This document shows, one piece after another, positions 2,695 to 63,791 of a DNA stretch of 64,000 nt. Below the pieces are notes generated by a model. It saw nothing but the letters and a program-made list of their open reading frames with translations, did no database searches and had not been told where the DNA came from. A program made the translations under genes and the position numbers. How positions within the stretch are numbered: position 1 is the stretch's first letter; each line of letters starts with the position of its first letter. Location: assembly GCA_019914995.1 (NCBI GenBank), contig CM034128.1, positions 64,501 to 128,500 on the forward strand, written 5' to 3'. The DNA comes from Acanthochlamys bracteata (taxonomy: Eukaryota > Streptophyta > Magnoliopsida > Pandanales > Velloziaceae).

Positions 2695-3327
2695 ATGAAG
2701 AAAGTCACCTACGGCGGCCGGCAAGCGGACCCGACCTGCGTAAATGCGTCTAATCCCTTCCACCAGTGCGGTGACTACTGCCGGAGAAGATCAACAAACA
2801 GGCCATCAAAGCCTTATTCATCGACGTCCCTGTATATTCGAGGTGAAATAATTTACAGTTATTGTTTCTTTTCGATCGGTTCGTATATAAAATATAAGAG
2901 GAAGTGATCAAATCGTACGTACCTCAGGCCGTAAAGTCGTAAATATGATGGAGAGTAAAGGTACCGCGATCAATATGAGCAGCTGCAAGAACGCATCCAA
3001 TCCCTTCCATATTTGCAGAGATTACTGCCACAAGAATTCAACCGTCTCAGGTAATTAATTCATTCTAGTTGATTAGGTAGTTGACGTACCTCTTAATTAT
3101 TTTCTTCAATTTAAGAAAATTAATCAAGAAGAGAATATCGAATACCTGCTGCTGCTTGACTATTTTGATCAAAACGTACAGCTGCAGTAGTTGCGAACGG
3201 TGAGAAGAAACGTACAGTACCGCAAAAAGAGAAGAGAAGCCAAGTCTACCAGGAATGCAGAAACGCTGAGAATCCTTTCCACGTTTGTACTGAAAATTGT
3301 TTGAACAGAATCAACCATAAGAAATAA
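2695..3327 (+). CDS. Small protein with three CHCC motifs, one per exon
   Basis: Exons 2695-2842, 2928-3050 and 3191-3327 join in frame at GT-AG sites to give 135 residues. Each exon encodes one copy of C-x-N-A-[SE]-N-P-F-H-x-C-x3-C, at residues 15-29, 69-83 and 113-127. Cys, Asn, Ala, Asn-Pro, His, Cys and Cys are identical in all three copies, so metal binding is plausible but unproven. Both introns are phase 1, so exon 2 is a symmetric exon that could be duplicated or lost without a frameshift. The linkers are basic (for example GEKKRTVPQKEKRS). The same motif occurs twice at the N terminus of the SYF2 gene 680 bp downstream. I do not recognise a named family and assign no function. It could be a degraded duplicate of the SYF2 5' end, but the intact frame and splice sites argue that it is a real gene. 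Confidence 0.65.
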
Positions 3328-4006: not shown

Positions 4007-6890
4007 ATGGAAAGGCCTCGATTGCCCAACGCTCGGGCGAATCCCGACTGCATCAACGCGTCCAACCCTTACCACGAGTGTGTCGATTACTGCTTCAAGA
4101 AGATCGCTGAAGCCAAATCCGTTCAACAAATTCAAGGTTTTGTATTATAATTCGATTCTCCTGTTCTTTTACAAGTTCGCTCGCTCTGATATCGTTCTTT
4201 CTTGCTCAATTAGTTTTTGTGCTAGGGATTTCTCTGTGATTGTATTGCTTGTCCAATCTTAGGCTAATGCTTAATTCTTCTTCAAAATTGAGTTTTGGTA
4301 ATACCCAAATTGCAGAATTTGGAAAAGAATTATGCTTGTTGACTTTTGCTTATTCAACCTGGTAGCAGTTTTCTGTCATGATATATCGGCTTCAAAATTT
4401 CAGGAGTTTTGAGATCTCTGTGAATCTGGACTTGAAGTCGTTTGTCTAGGGTTTTCGTTTGACAAATATTCAGGTGGTCATATACTTTAGAAGTTGGACT
4501 TGCAATGTTTCTTGAAACTGATGAATTTTTTATGGAACAGCTGGAGTGGTTGATGATGGCCCACCAAAGGAGAGGACCGTGCACCCTGACTGTATAAATG
4601 CCTCAAACCCGTATCATGAGTGCTCCGAGTACTGCTTTAGAAGGATTGCCAAAGTGAACGATCTCTCTGACAAAGAGACTGGAGTTGGTTCGTATTTAAG
4701 TTTTTTAAACTGTTCACATGATTCTTTCCCGAGCTTGGTTTATGAGGTCTGTGCAGTTGGTTAGATTGTGGTGGTTTACAGCAATTGCTGATTCAATCAC
4801 TAGTGTGATCATAAGTTGATGCAGTATGCTATGAGTCAGTCCTCTTATTTTGCTTCGAATTAAAGTAATCTAAATTGATGCAATAACTTCATATTTGCAG
4901 TCACTGATGTAATTTGTATTTGTCTGTCAAACTTGTCCCCATGATTGATCTGGGCAGATAATTGTCATTTTGTCTGAGAAATAATTATGCCATCATATTC
5001 TTTCTGCTTGATTATCTGTTTTCCCCTTCATTGTAGGAGTTGGAGGAGATGATGGTCAGGATACTCCCTCTGCAAAAGGACCTGACTTAGGAGATAAAAC
5101 AGACAGTGAGAAAGGCGAAATGGTGGAGAATGAAGCTGGTGCAGAATATCCTGTTCTTAATGAAAGGCAGAAGAAATTATTCGAGCTGAGGCTTAGAATG
5201 GTATTTGAATTCACTCCTTGCATTCATTATTACCAAACTCACTTTATTATTTTGCATAGACATGCATGCTCATTTGCTGATTTATGATCATCTGACTATT
5301 AATTCCAATTTGTTTTCTTGGTAACAGAATGAGGCACGAAAAGCTAATCAAGTGGCTATGGTGGTTGAAAAAAACAAAATGGAAGCCCCTGCAGAGTCTC
5401 GCGGAGTCTCTAAACAGCAATGGCTTGAGGATAGGAAAAAGAAGATAGGGAAGCTGCTAGATTCAAATGGTCTGGAAATGTCGAAAGCTTACATGCTTGA
5501 TACACAAGAAATGGCTGAAGTGAAATATAAGAAGTGGGAAAAGGAACCTGCTCCATTTGGCTGGGATGGTAATTCTCTCTAAACTTTAAGTTACTATTCT
5601 CAGAAGCATCTCTAGAAGGTAGCAAATGAACTATCCATTCTTGCTTGTTTAAGTAGCAAGTTGCATAGTCTCCTACATCTTTTGTCAATCACCTTATATT
5701 ACAATAGTTTGAAAGTGTAGGATACTTTGTTGAATCGGGACTACTCGCATTTGTAGCCAAATAAGCTTTGATGTTATACTTTTTGCTTGTAAAAGTGATG
5801 TGGAGCTGTTAATAAAGAACTTGTTATTGGCTGTAGCCAAATAAGCGAGATTGTTGGACTTTTGGTTCCAGTCAAACTGCTTAATCTTGTCATTGGCCAA
5901 CTATCTTGCAGCTCCCTGAAGTTAACCTCATGTCAAGACATAGTGCCTAGAGCATATGCCACTTTAGAGTGGGAGCAATCTCCTATCCTGTTTTGTTATG
6001 CAAAGCAATTTGGACCTTTTCTGGTTTGAATGTGTTCGTCTGGTCTATAGCCTGAATACTTGTGTATATATATGAAAATTTACACCTTTTCTCGGACAAC
6101 ATTTCACCAGGCAAATTTAACAGTTATTGGTGGTTGTGTTAGATTGAGGTATTTTTGTTTCGTCTTCTTCTTTCTGTGTGTGTGCAATCGTGTGAAATTA
6201 GTTAATATCTCACTTGAGATGGTGGGTTTGCCCCTGCAGTGGATGGGCATAGTAATGCCAATTGGTGTTCACTACTACTTGTAGACATTTTCTCTTTTTT
6301 TTTTTTTTTCTTAAGAGTATTTTATAAAATTGGGTTAAAATTATAGCATGCATAGAGTGTTTAATTCTATTTTGATAGCTTAACTAGTTTGCTAATACAA
6401 CTAAGCACTTGGAACAGTTTTCAATCAAAAGACGCTGTACAATGCTTATAAGAAGCGAACGAGAGATATACAAGTTGACATGGAGGCATACCAAAAGGCA
6501 AAAGAAGCTGATCCAGAGTTCTATCGTGATGCTTCGAGTCTTCAGTATGGAAAGGTATACCGCTACGTCTATCACGGAGCAAGTTTGCTTACACTCTTGA
6601 AATGCTTTAAGTGTTTTTAGTATGGATCAGTGTCTGTATTTACTCCTGATTCTTTGTTTCAGACAACAAAGGTACCTGAGGAGAACATCAACAGAATGGT
6701 TAAGGAGCTTCAAGACAGGGATGCGAAGAGGAAATCATTCAGCAGGAGACGTAGGTATCATGAGGAGAAGGACATTGATTCCATCAATGACAGGAACGAA
6801 CACTTCAATAAGAAGATCGAGAGAGCCTTTGGGAAGTACACATTGGAGATCAAGAACAACTTGGAAAGAGGCACTGCCTTACCAGATTAA
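4007..6890 (+). CDS. SYF2: Pre-mRNA-splicing factor SYF2, plant type with two N-terminal CHCC motifs
   Basis: Exons 4007-4136, 4541-4687, 5037-5200, 5328-5568, 6418-6554 and 6663-6890 join in frame to give 348 residues. The C-terminal half (about residues 130-348) is the charged helical SYF2 domain, with the conserved stretches LNERQKKLFELRLRMNEARK, AYMLDTQEMAEVKYKKW and NEHFNKKIERAFGKYTLEIK. SYF2 (GCIP-interacting p29) belongs to the NineTeen/Prp19-associated splicing machinery in the nucleus. Exons 1 and 2 each encode a C-x-NASNPYH-x-C-x3-C motif, at residues 15-29 and 61-75, and both following introns are phase 1, as in the small gene just upstream. The ATG at 4007 is chosen because it opens the frame at MERPRLP; upstream in-frame codons are non-ATG. 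Two site II motifs precede the gene. Confidence 0.9.
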
Positions 6891-21223: not shown

Positions 21224-23519
21224 GTGCATAATTGAATTTGTATACGCAATAACAACCAAACCTAAGAACAGTGTAGTTAGAAATTTCGTAAGGTAGGTGT
21301 ACGCTGCAATGCCGTGTTTTGTACCTTAGATGTGTGTCAAATGAATCGTTATAGAAGTAGGTGGTCATTCATCAACATGAACTTGTTCATTTGAACAATC
21401 CATAACGAGGGAAGCTGCATAGGTTTTTTTTTTTTTTTTTCCCCCAACATGGCTTGGGTTGATGTTAACAGGCTTGGTCGTTTTGAGGGATGTTTTCTTC
21501 TTGATCTTTTCAATGCTGTATACCTAGTGACAAAAATACACATGAAAGTGCTTTGTGATAGGGACGAATTCGGTAACGTTCACTGAAATATGACTGACAA
21601 AGTTGTAACAAAATGGAGACTCTCTAGAGGTTATGGATGTGCTTCCTGTGCCCCAGAGAAAGGCTTCGCATAACGATGATATTGTTTATAGAGAAAGAAC
21701 GAAGAATTCACCACGGAGTTGTTTCACAAGCTATTTCTATTCGAAATGTGACAGCTCCTAAGAATTGCTGCGTTATTTTTTCGTGCAACTGCTGAACTCC
21801 TTGCTCCTGATAAATATGTATTCATCGTCTTTCTCTCCTTCTTGCCGGCTTATGATTTTTATTACAAATAGAAAGCGATGATTGTATCATTGTGGATTTA
21901 TTCAATTTCTTCAGCCGCTTCTCTTTTTAAATGAAAAACAGAAAGCTCGAGCCGTTGGCCGACTCTTATGAATTTGTTCTAAAGATTGAAATCTGTGTTT
22001 CGTGAATGACTGGAAAAAGGGAGCGACAAGAAGAAGAAGAAAATGAATTCGAAGGTAGCCTTGCTTGCTGCTGCTTTTATTGTGATTGAGAGCCGAGCAC
22101 CCCACCTTCTTTGCTCCATTGTGCCATCAAATGCCACTTATTAATGGCATTTCTAATGTGTTGAATAGTAAGGAAGAAGCAAAATCGAAGATTTATAATG
22201 TTTCATATGAAAGGTATTTCGGTTTTGGGTGCGAGATTGATTAGGAAACATCCAACAAGCTTGAAGGTTAGTTTAGTTCTACCGAGTTCTTGCAATACAA
22301 AGTACTTTTGCTTGACAAAAAGAGTACTCTGGCCACATTCTTTGCGTGACTTGTTAAAGGAGCAAATCTAGATGTATGTTCATCTTCCCACTTGAGAGCT
22401 ACATCTAGTTGTAAATTAAAGTGCAGGACGCATCTTGGAAAAGGGTGTACTCTAATTTTGCTTGGTAGTTTTGTTGTTAGTGTATGCATGTCAACTGTAG
22501 CAATGTATCTTCTGATGATTAATACTAGTATTTGCACACAGATACGATATAGCAGAGCACAAAATAGAGATGCTACTACATTGTGATCCTACTACATGAT
22601 ATACTTCAAATTAAAAATTAGTTGCTGATGACAAACGGCTTGTAGTTGGCAAACGGATACGATATACTATTTTGCCAACGTATATCTCTGCTTCTCTATT
22701 ATTCTTTTCTAAATTGAATGCAGTTAAAAAAAATTTTTAATTTTATAATGCTTATAGCTCGTTTAAGATTGTTTAAAATAAATTCGTTTTATATAAATAA
22801 AAGAAACTTCTGGTGATTTTTTTAAAATAATTTTTTTTAATTTAAAAAACAATAAAATTAATATATCCTATAGATATATTAATAGGTCCCTGTTTGGTTT
22901 TGGGTTTTCGAAGAAGAAATAAGCTCAAGCCACCTGGATATTTGACAGCCTCATATTTACAACTAGTACAAGTTTTACGGGGAAAAATTTATGTGCAACA
23001 ATAATCCTTAATTTTTCACAGCAATTCTATCAATTGTCCAATACACAAAAAAATAAGTAGTCGTTTCTTCTTCTCACAACAAGAAAAGACGAATCTTTTC
23101 GTTCCATGTGTACAAGTTGCATTAGCTTATAAATTCTTTTTCGACATTTAGTGGATATTCAAAAATACTTATTAAAACAAAATTTTGCTGAAATGAAATA
23201 TATTTTTAAATTTTTTAAAATTAAATTCTATTTTTTATCTTAAAATAAACTAATAATAAATAATAATAAAATTTTACGATATTTAATTTTTTTGTACATT
23301 CTAAATTTATAAATAAATTTATAAAATATTTCTCAAAATTTTTTAGAAAACGTGAAATAAAAATTAAAATAAAAAAAAAGAAAGTAATAAGCACTTCTAA
23401 ATATAATTTTAACAATTCACTTGTATAATACAACAAACTAAACATTAATTTTACTTGAATGAGACCAGCTATATGAATCCGTCGCCACAATTCTAAACTA
23501 AGTTAATTTGATCTACCAT
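21224..23519. other. AT-rich spacer
   Basis: No gene supported. The stretch from about 22700 to 23480 is extremely A/T-rich, with long T and A runs. The only open frames are short and low in complexity. Confidence 0.5.
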
Positions 23520-59578: not shown

Positions 59579-60859
59579 ATGGCTAGCAAGTACGAGATTG
59601 AGAAGTTCAATGGGAGCAACTACACATTGTGGAGAGCAAGGCTATTGGCGGTCCTTGCAAAGGAGAATTGTTTGGGAGCACTAGAGAATCGGTCAAGTGA
59701 TCTTCCGGAGAAAAGATGGCAGAAAATTGAGCGAAATGCTTTGGCACACATTCATCTTACCTTGGCCGATGATATCTTGCTGAGTGTACTGGAAAAGAAG
59801 ACCGCAAAGGAGGTATGGGAGAAGCTGGAAAAAACTTATGCTAAGAAGTTACCGCAACATGCCATTTTCTTAATGAGAAAGATGTATTCTCTACGCATGT
59901 TGGACTCAGCTTCTGCTTCAGGACACTTGGGTTCATTGGAGGCTTTGTTTTCTCAATTGACAACGTTGGGAAAGAAGATAGAAACTAATGAACGTGCCTT
60001 GATCCTTCTACAAAGCCTTCCCGATTCCTATGATCAGGTAGTGATCAACCTCACTAGTACGACTGATATAGATTCTCTTGTTTATGATGAGGTAGCAGCA
60101 GCTGTTCTTGAGAAAGAAGGTCGCCGCAAACGCAAACAAGAGATTTCACCTGTTGGGCACCAAGCTGAAGCTTTATTGATTGCACAAGATAGCTTGGGCA
60201 AGAAACGGAAATTCAATAACGGTTCTGGACAGAAGAAAAACAAGCGACAGGTGAAGTGTTATGCGTGTGGAAAGTTTGGACATATCAAAAGAGAATGTAA
60301 GACCATAACAAATAAGGTTGGAGGTACGGATTCCTCGAAGTCCCTTACTTGTGTGGCGTACAACTCTGATGATGGTGAGGCTCTAGTGGGAGAGACGGTG
60401 GTTGCGTCCAAACTCTCAGATGACTGGATCTTGGACTCGGGAGCATCCTGGCACATGACTTCTAGAAGAGATTTGTTTCATCACTATAAAGTTATTTCTG
60501 GAGGTGCCGTGCGGATGGAAAATGGACAAGTCTTTGAAGTTGCTGGAGTCGGTTCCATCAAGTTTAGAGCAAATGATGGAAATGTATGCATCATCAGTAA
60601 GGTACGTCATGTACTTGGTCTTACAAAGAATTTAGGACAATTGGATGACCTAGGCTGCAAGACTCGTGTTGAAAGCGGGATTATGGATGTCATTAAAGAC
60701 GGGCAGAAGATCTTGGAAGCTGAAAAGATTGACTCAAACTTATATAAGGTGCGTGGGGTGACACTGACGCATGGAGAAGCTTGTGTTGCATCAAGCAACA
60801 TTGAGGATATCACGCGAGTGTGGCTCCTGAAATTAGGACATATCTCGGAACGTGGTTGA
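59579..60859 (+). pseudogene. Copia gag and protease region, interrupted
   Basis: A 426-residue frame from the ATG at 59579. Gag occupies about residues 1-250, with a CCHC zinc knuckle (CYACGKFGHIKREC, C-x2-C-x4-H-x4-C) near residue 227. The aspartic protease site DSGA lies near residue 285. The frame ends at a TGA (60857-60859) in the pre-integrase region, where sequence after the stop continues the expected domain in another frame, so a small deletion has broken it. A further stop follows at about 60964. Confidence 0.85.
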
Positions 60860-61221
60860 AGATCCTCAGTGATCGGAAGCTTCTGCCAGGATTATCCGTT
60901 GTAAAGTTACCATTCTGCGAGAAATGTGTCACCGGTAAGCAGCATCGGGCAAAGTTTGGGAGATAGGTCAGTCGATTATTCTCGAAAAACAAACTCGGTA
61001 CAGTGCCCACAGCAACAAGAGCTTGCTTTCTTTCCCCATTGATGGTTTACCTAGTGCTTAGGACATCCGGAATCATCTAACCTAATCCACACCATTGACA
61101 CCACCGCTATAAGGCATGATCAGGCATGCAATGGATTTATCCAGTTGTCAAATCTGGATCCCAAGAGCAGATCATCATCTGTAAACTGGATTGAGTTTTC
61201 AGAGCTAAAGACAAACTTCAC
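60860..61221 (+). pseudogene. Damaged pre-integrase segment
   Basis: The first 100 bp are the frameshifted rest of the pre-integrase zinc-binding region (Cys residues near 60917 and 60926). From about 61010 to 61200 no coherent copia coding was recognised, suggesting a deletion or replaced sequence. Confidence 0.6.
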
Positions 61222-62262
61222 TTGATTCACTCGGATGTGTGGGAGTCACCGCAACTATCTCTTGGTGGTGCTAAATATTTTGTTTCATTTATTGATGATT
61301 TTTTCAGGAGAAGTTGGGTATTCCCAATCCGAAGGAAGTCGGAAGTCTTTGAGGTGTTCAAGTTCTTCAAAGCCCGGATGGAACTTGATTCCAGCAGTAG
61401 GATCAAGTGCCTTAGATCGGACAATGGTGGAGAATACAACAGTGCGGAGTTTGTTACTCTCCTGGCACAAGAAGGAATAAAAAGGCAGTCAACGGTGGCT
61501 TACACGCCTCAGCAGAATAGAGTAGCTGAACGATTCAATCGAACACTAGCTGAGCGGGTACGTGCTATGCTACAAGGGGCTGGTCTGCCACATAGTTTTT
61601 GGGCAGAAGCAGTCAAGACTGCTTGCTATGTGTTGAATCGTATTCCTTCTACTGCCATTGATTTGAAAATTCTAATGGAATTGTGGACTGGTGCCACTGT
61701 TGATTATTCTCGTCTGTATATTTTTGATTGTCCGGTGTATGTGATGTATAATGCCCAGGAAAGAAACAAACTGGATCCAAAGTCCAGAAGATGCCTATTC
61801 TTGGGATATGCTGAAGATGTTTTGGGGTATCGTTTATGGGATCCCATTGCCCATAAAGTTATCTTCAACAGGGATGTCATCTTTACGGAGGACCAGCTGC
61901 AAAGAGTGACTGATAGCGATGATGCAAGAGAGAAGGAGGCATCACTTCCAGTGATGACCACATCGGTACTGGAGGAGAATGATGAAAAAGACGATCCTAA
62001 TCTGGAGCCAATACTAGCGGATGAGCACATAGAAGAGGATGGAGTTCCCAGGCCTACGTCCCTTAGGCGTTCAACTCGCAAGAGAAAAACACCTGAGAGG
62101 TATGAGGACTATTTTATGGAGTCACCTCAATCTGTATATTGTTTATTCACAGAGGAAGGAGAGCCATCTTCTCTCAAAGAAGTGCTGGAGAGTTCAGATG
62201 CGTCTCTGTGGATGGAAGCTATGAAGGAAGAGCTTGAGGCGCTTCATAAAAATAGGACATAG
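61222..62262 (+). pseudogene. Copia integrase core and start of reverse transcriptase region
   Basis: An open frame of 346 residues. Integrase catalytic acids sit in HSDVW (N terminus), RSDNGGEY (about residue 67) and QNRVAERFNRT (about residue 105), followed by the C-terminal region and a linker. It ends at a TAG (62260-62262) where TGG would be expected at the start of the reverse-transcriptase domain, so a point mutation has made a nonsense codon. Confidence 0.85.
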
Positions 62263-63791
62263 GAGCTGGTACCTCTACCCCAAGGCCGTAAAGCTATTGG
62301 AAATAAATGGGTCTACAAGATTAAGAGAGGCAGTAATGATCAAGTAGAACGGTATCGTGCTCGGCTGGTAGTGAAAAGCTACGCACAGAAGGAAGGGATC
62401 GACTTTGATAAAATCTTCTCTCCAGTGGTACGTTTAACAACTATTCGTGTGGTCTTAGCACTGTGTGCATCATCGGATCTCCATCTTGAACATTTCGATG
62501 TGAAGACGGCGTTCTTACGGAGAGCTCAAGAGGAGATATATATGTCCAACCCGAAGGCTTTGCCGTTAAAAGCGAGGAGGATCTGGTGTGTCGGTTGGCC
62601 AAATCTCTTTATGGGCTTAAACAAGCACCCGCGGTGTTGGTATAAGAGATTTGATTCTTGTATCGAGAGCCTTGGATACAAACAAGTTAGTCTCGAACTC
62701 TTGTGTGTACATCAAGAGATTTGAGGGAGGTGAGTTTGTCATGTTGCTGCTGTATGTGGATGATATGCTTGTAGCAGGTCCAAGCATAGATCGTATCCAA
62801 CAATTGAAGGCTCAACTGGCTAGTGAATTCGATACCAGGACTTGGGGCGTGCAAAAACGTAATCCTAGGGATGCGAGATATATGGCGAGATAGAGGCAAT
62901 AGAGAGATTGGTGTCTCTCGGACTAGCTATCTGAGGAAAGTGTTCGAGCGGTTCAACATGTATGGTGGTAAGCCGATGTCTACCCCACTCTCTATTAGTC
63001 TCAAACTATCCTCTTTGTTATCCCCTAGCTAGGAGCAAGAGAGGATAGAGATGTCTCGGATACCATATGCATCAGCAGTGAGAAGCCTAATGTATGCCAT
63101 GATTTGCACTCGGCCTGACATTGCACATGCAGTGGGAGTGGTAAGTAGATTTATGGCATGTCCTGGCATTGAGCATTGGAAGGCGGTAAAAAGGATCCTT
63201 CGGTATGTGAAAGGAACCTTAAATGCTGCATTGTGTTACAGAGGATCTGATTTTGTTGTCAAAGGGTTTGTTGATGCAGACTATGCGGGTGATTTGGATA
63301 GGAGGAAATCCACCTCTGGTTATGTGTTTATTCTTGCAGGTGGTGCTGTCAGTTGGTGTTCTAAACTGCAGTCCGTGGTAGCTCTGTCTACAACGGAAGC
63401 TGAGTATATGGCAGCAACACAGGCATGCAAGAAAGGGGTCTGGATGAAGAGACTGTTGGAGGAACTTGGGCAAAAATATGAGACTTTATCTCTGTTTTGT
63501 GATAGCCTAAGTGCATTGCATCTTGCAAAAAATCCAGCACTTCATTCCAGAACAAAATACATAGATATACAGTATTATTACGTACGGGAGGTGGTTTCTA
63601 GTGGGAGCATTGATATGCTCAAGATTTCTACCAAAGGGAACCCTGTGGATGCCTTAATTAAGGTGGTAACTCTTGACAAGTTTTTATTTTGTAGATCTCT
63701 ATATGGAATCACAATGGAGAACAGCATTAGATGGGACAAGAAAGCCGAAAGGAAATCACATCAAGATAGCAATGGAACCGAGGGAAGATAG
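62263..63791 (+). pseudogene. Copia reverse transcriptase and RNase H, multiple frame breaks
   Basis: Fragments in changing frames: GNKWVYKIKRG after the nonsense codon, then 62371-62724 with FDVKTAFL, the active-site LLYVDDMLVAG near 62745, and a long RNase H frame at 63051-63791 (DADYAGD, STTEAEYMA). Breaks fall at about 62520-62560, 62640-62690, 62850-62900 and 63030. Confidence 0.85.

Follow-up and report, generated by a model that had tools for sequence, protein, structure and literature searches.

A small gene of three exon-encoded CHCC modules beside SYF2 and its likely kinship with stand-alone module arrays

Just upstream of SYF2 in Acanthochlamys bracteata lies a small gene that repeats a motif also found in SYF2, which raises the question of whether it is a recent offshoot of its neighbor, a member of an older family, or a relic. 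The window, i.e., the whole stretch of 64,000 nucleotides analyzed here, is C3:64,501-128,500 of an assembly of 195.5 Mb in 557 contigs. The small gene occupies window positions 2695-3327 in three exons, each with one C-x7-H-x-C-x3-C module (hereafter CHCC module). Its motifs follow the pattern CxNAxNPFHxCxxxC and start at 2737 (CVNASNPFHQCGDYC), 2984 (CKNASNPFHICRDYC), and 3256 (CRNAENPFHVCTENC). On the plus strand, coding exon 1 (2695..2842) carries module 1 at 2737-2781 and ends in phase 1, exon 2 (2928..3050; symmetric 1-1, 123 nt) carries module 2 at 2984-3028, and exon 3 with the stop codon (3182..3327) carries module 3 at 3256-3300. Splicing 2695-2842 to 2928-3050 and then to an exon 3 ending at 3327 gives an intact frame, and the two GT-AG introns are each in phase 1. 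More than one acceptor fits exon 3, with starts at 3182, 3188, or 3191 giving 138, 136, or 135 residues, and an alternative exon 2 acceptor ending at 2936 likewise preserves the frame. A sequence-only reading of this DNA had described three exons with one motif apiece, joined by introns of phase 1 into an open frame; all of this is borne out, and the 135 residues it claimed correspond to the variant starting at 3191. The GC content is 41-53% in the exons vs. 30-35% in the introns and flanks, and that of the exons is coding-like. A bacterial-type promoter scan is uninformative for a plant gene.

SYF2 is a nuclear, NTC-related splicing factor. Its ATG lies 679 bp beyond the stop codon of the small gene on the same strand. 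Coding exon 1 (4007..4136) carries a CHCC module at 4049-4093 and ends in phase 1, exon 2 (4541..4687; symmetric 1-1, 147 nt) carries a second at 4591-4635, and exons 3-6 (5037-5200, 5328-5568, 6418-6554, and 6663-6890) contain the SYF2 domain, all on the plus strand. Together the six coding exons encode a protein of 348 residues (SYF2 domain E 8.8e-38, Pfam search), and the GC content of exons 1-2 is 50-52% vs. 35% in their introns. The SYF2 domain was found at one genomic locus only, at E up to 0.001. That SYF2 lies downstream of the small gene, with the same motif and intron phase in its first two exons, as had been read from the letters, is thus confirmed, with a gap of 679 bp. In each protein the first motif Cys is indeed residue 15, its codon starting 42 nt from the ATG, which is weak evidence because the sole module of one bean SYF2 sits at residue 11 and aligns with exon 2.

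That bean protein is listed as unknown in a proteomics table, in the one paper found to contain the motif strings (PMC4039509, as far as the available part of the source goes). It is 68% identical to the window SYF2 over 310 columns and has one module, and on this alignment it is taken to be a one-module SYF2. The alignment begins at residue 54 of the window SYF2, and the bean module pairs with exon 2. Since the single bean module matches exon 2, exon 1 of the window SYF2 appears to be an extra module exon, as judged from one bean SYF2; it would have been copied either from exon 2 or from the neighboring gene. The six solved SYF2-type chains that were found align to the window SYF2 from residue 119 or later only, and a module profile searched against PDB at E up to 10 matched none of them, which suggests that the modules are an addition missing from those six chains. 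In the best solved match, PDB 8xi2_M, the matching region is the C-terminal part of a chain of 563 residues whose deposited name is that of a cyclophilin-type PPIase protein. This is presumably the Chlamydomonas entry.

In the parts of the literature that were available, rice OsSYF2 binds a cyclophilin and influences both splicing and the length of the grain (PMC7483694), the Chlamydomonas C* spliceosome includes Syf2 in its NTR group (PMC11833078), and the Arabidopsis SYF2 At2g16860 is given as atGCIPp29 in a table (PMC545797). The CHCC module is absent from the animal SYF2 motifs listed in the portion seen of an animal motif study (PMC9479762). Because 8xi2_M is of PPIase type and rice SYF2 reportedly binds a cyclophilin (PMC7483694, same portion), these observations may hint at a SYF2-cyclophilin fusion.

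How widely does the module occur? A 27-base degenerate pattern covering the first nine motif residues has seven exact matches in the 195.5 Mb genome, five of them in the small gene and SYF2 and one each in array genes on C1 and C2. The reversed pattern, searched through the whole genome as a control, gave none, and so the motifs of the small gene and SYF2 are not due to chance. Two protein searches, which gave 14 and 13 matches with E values up to 10, located the module in just two further places, at about 243-245 kb of C1 and 223-225 kb of C2. A weak match on C18 (E 1.5) was rejected as a further module, the motif being absent. Modules were recognised by a pattern that contains the ligand and Asn6 letters, and the protein searches, run to an E value of 10, added none; the conservation of the four ligands and Asn6 in all 14 genome modules is therefore partly by construction. 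The Pro of the N-P-F/Y-H core is kept in 13 of 14, one C2 module having Ala. All three modules of the small gene fit the definition (C-x7-H-x-C-x3-C, invariant Asn6, N-P-F/Y-H core). Intron-facing boundaries of module exons are in phase 1 for 3/3 modules of the small gene and, in hand-built models, for 14/14 genome-wide. The internal module exons (9/9) have phase 1-1 and a length divisible by three, in models built with the frame in view.

The two other places each hold a stand-alone array gene, modeled by hand with splice sites picked to keep the frame. The C1 gene (C1:242.9-245.6k) has five modules in nine exons and encodes 401 residues, and the C2 gene (C2:222.9-225.1k) has four modules in eight exons and encodes 408 residues. 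Neither protein matched a Pfam family above cut-off, and the SYF2 domain is absent from both; no SYF2-domain remnants were found by tblastn (E up to 1) in 70 kb near each array. Like the small gene, these genes are stand-alone, carry the exon-encoded module, and are without the SYF2 domain; unlike it, they have five and four modules, interspersed module-free exons, and a longer first exon. The C1 and C2 segments are collinear, with many pieces at 67-89% DNA identity, and dS between the two array genes is 0.37 overall (NG86). C1 and C2 are best read as homoeologs from a fairly recent duplication, and the small gene as a member of a small paralog family of module arrays rather than a one-off copy. 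The module exon at L017 4910-5056 of the C1 array gene is missing from its C2 homoeolog, in which the L016 intron 4126-4484 still partly aligns, suggesting that modules are gained or lost as whole exons. A GC-AG intron is apparently located at the same place in both hand-built models (L017 6495-6578; L016 5313-5393).

Four genes of the window were searched genome-wide for synteny. The WRC-domain gene has 17 matches, of which the two best non-self ones are at C2:279k and C1:316k, and the coiled-coil gene matches C1:266k at 56%, its genome search giving no match on C2. The other two have no match in the C1/C2 segments, neither the Rho_N gene nor the PPR gene (49 genome matches at E up to 1e-60). 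In addition, a 34-residue stretch at window 22.2 kb is 79-82% identical at C1:276.5k and C2:247.3k. The array genes, at C1:243k and C2:223k, sit inside segments sharing these WRC, coiled-coil, and short-peptide matches, and the C3 SYF2 segment and the C1/C2 segments look like ancient paralogs. This comparison omits the C2-C3 blastn matches near C3 88, 99, 105, and 115 kb and short linked tblastx rows, which were assumed to be repeats or chance. The 34-residue stretch is contained in a short ORF at window 22165-22371 (+), which encodes MFHMKGISVLGARLIRKHPTSLK and has no Pfam match. Among the frames listed, the longest stop-to-stop frame from this ORF to 28.5 kb is 106 aa, and our impression is that the ORF encodes a conserved upstream-ORF peptide.

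A recent homoeolog of the C3 segment is found at C5:10.68-10.72 Mb in reversed orientation. Three window genes are present there: the coiled-coil gene (two longest pieces 83 and 80% identical), the WRC gene (pieces at 64 and 76%, containing stops), and a fragmented Rho_N gene (one piece at 83%, others with stops). Genome searches gave no SYF2 and no CHCC match on C5; SYF2 therefore appears to be single copy, and the small gene could postdate the C3/C5 duplication.

The occurrence of stand-alone arrays in ancient paralogous segments on C1 and C2 implies that an array beside SYF2 most simply predates the segment duplication, and the C1/C2 arrays probably occupy the site expected of an ancient copy of the SYF2 locus. 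The explanation we favor, with confidence a little short of even, is that the small gene is a genuine CHCC-family member descended from an old SYF2-linked array, its modules being zinc knuckles that bind a partner in trans. The old array would have been copied along with the SYF2 locus by an ancient segmental (polyploid) duplication; the C1/C2 copy would then have retained the array, now of five and four modules, and lost SYF2, and the C3 copy would have retained SYF2 and a three-module array. A single array birth followed by loss of SYF2 from the C1/C2 copy is preferred because it would take fewer events than two births. The sequence-only reading had proposed a tandem duplication of the SYF2 5′ exons followed by exon duplication. 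Kinship and exon duplication stand, by sequence, phase, and adjacency, but the gene as a lone derivative of SYF2 does not, given the C1/C2 arrays, and the true history is probably older and less simple than the one proposed. That a recent, lone duplicate of SYF2 tells the full story was likewise set aside, being less likely given the C1/C2 arrays and the ancient synteny.

A lineage-specific version of that proposal, in which the SYF2 5′ exons were duplicated in tandem and extended by exon duplication independently of the C1/C2 arrays, is nonetheless a serious contender, if an unlikely one. The small gene adjoins SYF2 on the same strand, both genes have the same 42 nt from ATG to first Cys, and the recent homoeolog on C5 is without a copy. 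In raw scores, small module 1 is closest to the two SYF2 modules (93 and 90), ahead of bean SYF2 (83) and C2 module 2 (82), but the SYF2 modules have diverged least and score high against all modules. Such a duplication would also require stand-alone CHCC arrays to have arisen twice, independently, at paralogous loci. Moreover, when the small gene was compared with the SYF2 gene by blastn, the top match (E 0.004) was 19 bases on the opposite strand, and the sole ranking same-strand match, the second (E 0.046), was module-sized and ran module to module, the rest being chance-level. In a tree of 15 modules (14 from the genome plus bean; 27 columns), small modules 1 and 2 are joined (88/93), and module 3 is placed, with weak support, beside C1/C2 module 1 (69/87); the best tree does not unite the three small modules. 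AU tests rejected neither a group of small and SYF2 modules (P = 0.33) nor a single clade of small modules (P = 0.14).

The opposite direction, in which plant SYF2 acquired its N-terminal modules by capturing phase 1 exons from an older CHCC array gene next to it, is somewhat less probable still. It would agree with the SYF2-type chains, all six of which match from residue 119 on only and none of which the module profile detects at E up to 10, with the modules being whole exons at the SYF2 5′ end, and with the one-module bean SYF2 (PMC4039509, in the part available), which aligns to exon 2 and leaves the window exon 1 as the extra. By similarity, however, the SYF2 modules look ancestral, and SYF2 exon 2, the best match of the extra exon (116), is an equally good candidate for its source. 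The module tree was discarded as an arbiter of direction between SYF2 and array, since only 1 of its 12 inner branches is well supported.

Between the C1 and C2 array proteins, 16 of 96 module residues differ vs. 112 of 253 linker residues (P = 9.6e-7, Fisher’s exact test). The ratio dN/dS is 0.167 in the modules and 0.831 in the linkers by NG86, and 0.355 and 1.144, respectively, by YN00. Between C1 and C2, the modules thus appear to be what selection keeps, with the linkers hardly constrained. The small gene has no such recent homoeolog, and its modules were compared with those of SYF2: the codon differs at 35 of 59 identical residues and the base at 13 of 16 fourfold sites, in six overlapping module comparisons that are not independent. 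Among homoeologous C1/C2 modules, the corresponding values are 10 of 50 and 6 of 16. In simulated neutral decay, scored for frame, start, splice sites, and the 12 ligands with substitutions only and indels uncounted, everything remained intact in 5.4% of 4000 runs at 0.05 substitutions per site and in 0.5% at 0.1. Old codon divergence together with this low intact fraction suggests that the small gene was probably under selection during most of its past. A recent loss of function is compatible with the decay argument, and a decaying or unexpressed relic would fit the absence of a recent homoeolog and the high divergence of small modules 2 and 3, which form the longest end branches of the module tree. 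We regard a relic as improbable, as the frame, the splice dinucleotides, and 12/12 ligands are intact despite the old divergence, and the exons have their coding-like GC content.

The module was also compared with known families. Plant SYF2 and the small gene share the same CHCC module in phase-matched 5′ exons and are adjacent on the same strand, whereas the small protein has three modules and is without the SYF2 domain (PF08231, about 154 positions; no match at E up to 10). The CCHC zinc knuckle has the spacing C-x2-C-x4-H-x4-C. Like the module, it packs three Cys and a single His into about 15 residues, but its ligand order and spacing differ from C-x7-H-x-C-x3-C. PF00098 does not match the small protein at E up to 10, whereas the same Pfam library recognizes zf-CCHC in one ORF of the window that belongs to a retroelement. 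The only NCBIfam match of the small protein was at chance level (E 2.6), as was the only PDB match of the module profile, a vitamin D receptor chain (E 1.2). The profile used for PDB (A1) has one wrong letter in one row, and profile A2, made from reference sequences, served the scans of viral contigs, which gave no pattern match, and of bacterial and archaeal contigs, in which none of seven pattern matches was a relative. No Pfam, NCBIfam, or PDB entry among those searched covers the module. A literature search, whose coverage did not extend to the plant SYF2 survey of Tian et al. (2019, Planta), found no account of the module or arrays. An exon-encoded CHCC module joining a core splicing factor to stand-alone arrays is apparently undescribed.

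What might the module do? AlphaFold was applied without metal to SYF2 exon 2, with the five window modules as the alignment. The predicted structure has a loop followed by a helix (29-45) whose start lies two residues ahead of the final motif Cys (31). Mean pLDDT is 71.9 in the best of the five models (81-83 in its motif blocks) and 57-63 in the others; pTM is 0.41, and a fold search of the model against PDB gave no match at E up to 10. Four conserved ligands within 15 residues, at the N-terminus of a nuclear protein, suggest one zinc per module. We think that each module may be a zinc knuckle and that the small protein may be a three-knuckle adaptor competing for, or sharing, the partner of the SYF2 N-terminus. 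In a reducing nucleus or cytosol, the module would bind one zinc through Cys1, His9, Cys11, and Cys15 and form a small knuckle capping a short helix. The SYF2 knuckles would hold a partner on the NTC-related face of the spliceosome, and the small protein, with three knuckles and without the SYF2 helical domain, would bind that partner or RNA in trans and so tune SYF2 loading. Beyond the module being under selection, we infer every step of this mechanism; the earlier suggestion of competition for a SYF2 partner seems a reasonable guess.

The spacing Cys1-x9-Cys11-x3-Cys15 could instead indicate disulfide-bonded modules in the C-x9-C/C-x3-C style of intermembrane-space proteins. The CX9C and CX3C disulfide proteins, e.g., CHCH, Tim10, and DUF842, have twin motifs in a helical hairpin. 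The module contains both spacings, but each exon has a single motif instead of a twin hairpin, and the His is invariant (14/14, partly by construction). Very weak Pfam echoes of DUF842 in the small protein (E 2.6) and of Tim10/DDP in the C1 protein (E 3.6) point the same way; at 8.2 and 7.6 bits, however, they fall far short of the curated cut-offs of 25.1 and 22.3, so neither protein belongs to a twin CX9C/CX3C family by score. SYF2 is, moreover, nuclear, and by eye the N-terminus of the small protein is without a hydrophobic signal. Disulfide bonding is accordingly very improbable, and zinc binding is the reading we retain.

The small gene may also act on SYF2 in cis. The donor of small exon 2 and the acceptor of SYF2 exon 2 share phase 1, so that splicing between them in a read-through transcript would keep the frame, and joining the two gives an open frame encoding a SYF2 with three modules. 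A bolder and rather doubtful proposal is that plants possess a zinc-knuckle module, so far undescribed, that spread within a SYF2-linked family in the form of phase 1 exons, with arrays that mimic the SYF2 N-terminus in trans and a small gene that may act in cis.

The small gene is a real gene structure; a small paralog family is ordinary, and the link of its module to a splicing factor is unusual. Plant SYF2 has an N-terminal module that the matched solved SYF2 chains are missing. Arrays with conserved modules and drifting linkers offer a direct handle on the role of the SYF2 N-terminus in splicing. They are also a compact plant case of exon duplication and loss, a whole module exon differing between recent homoeologs.

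Elsewhere in the window, pieces of a copia-type LTR retroelement were observed at 59579-62262 (+), perhaps extending to 63791, where the frame at 63051-63788 has no Pfam match and is RNase H-like by eye only. Pfam identifies a copia-type gag, Pol_BBD, and a CCHC knuckle at 59579-60856, and a retroviral polymerase SH3-like domain above cut-off at 61222-62259.
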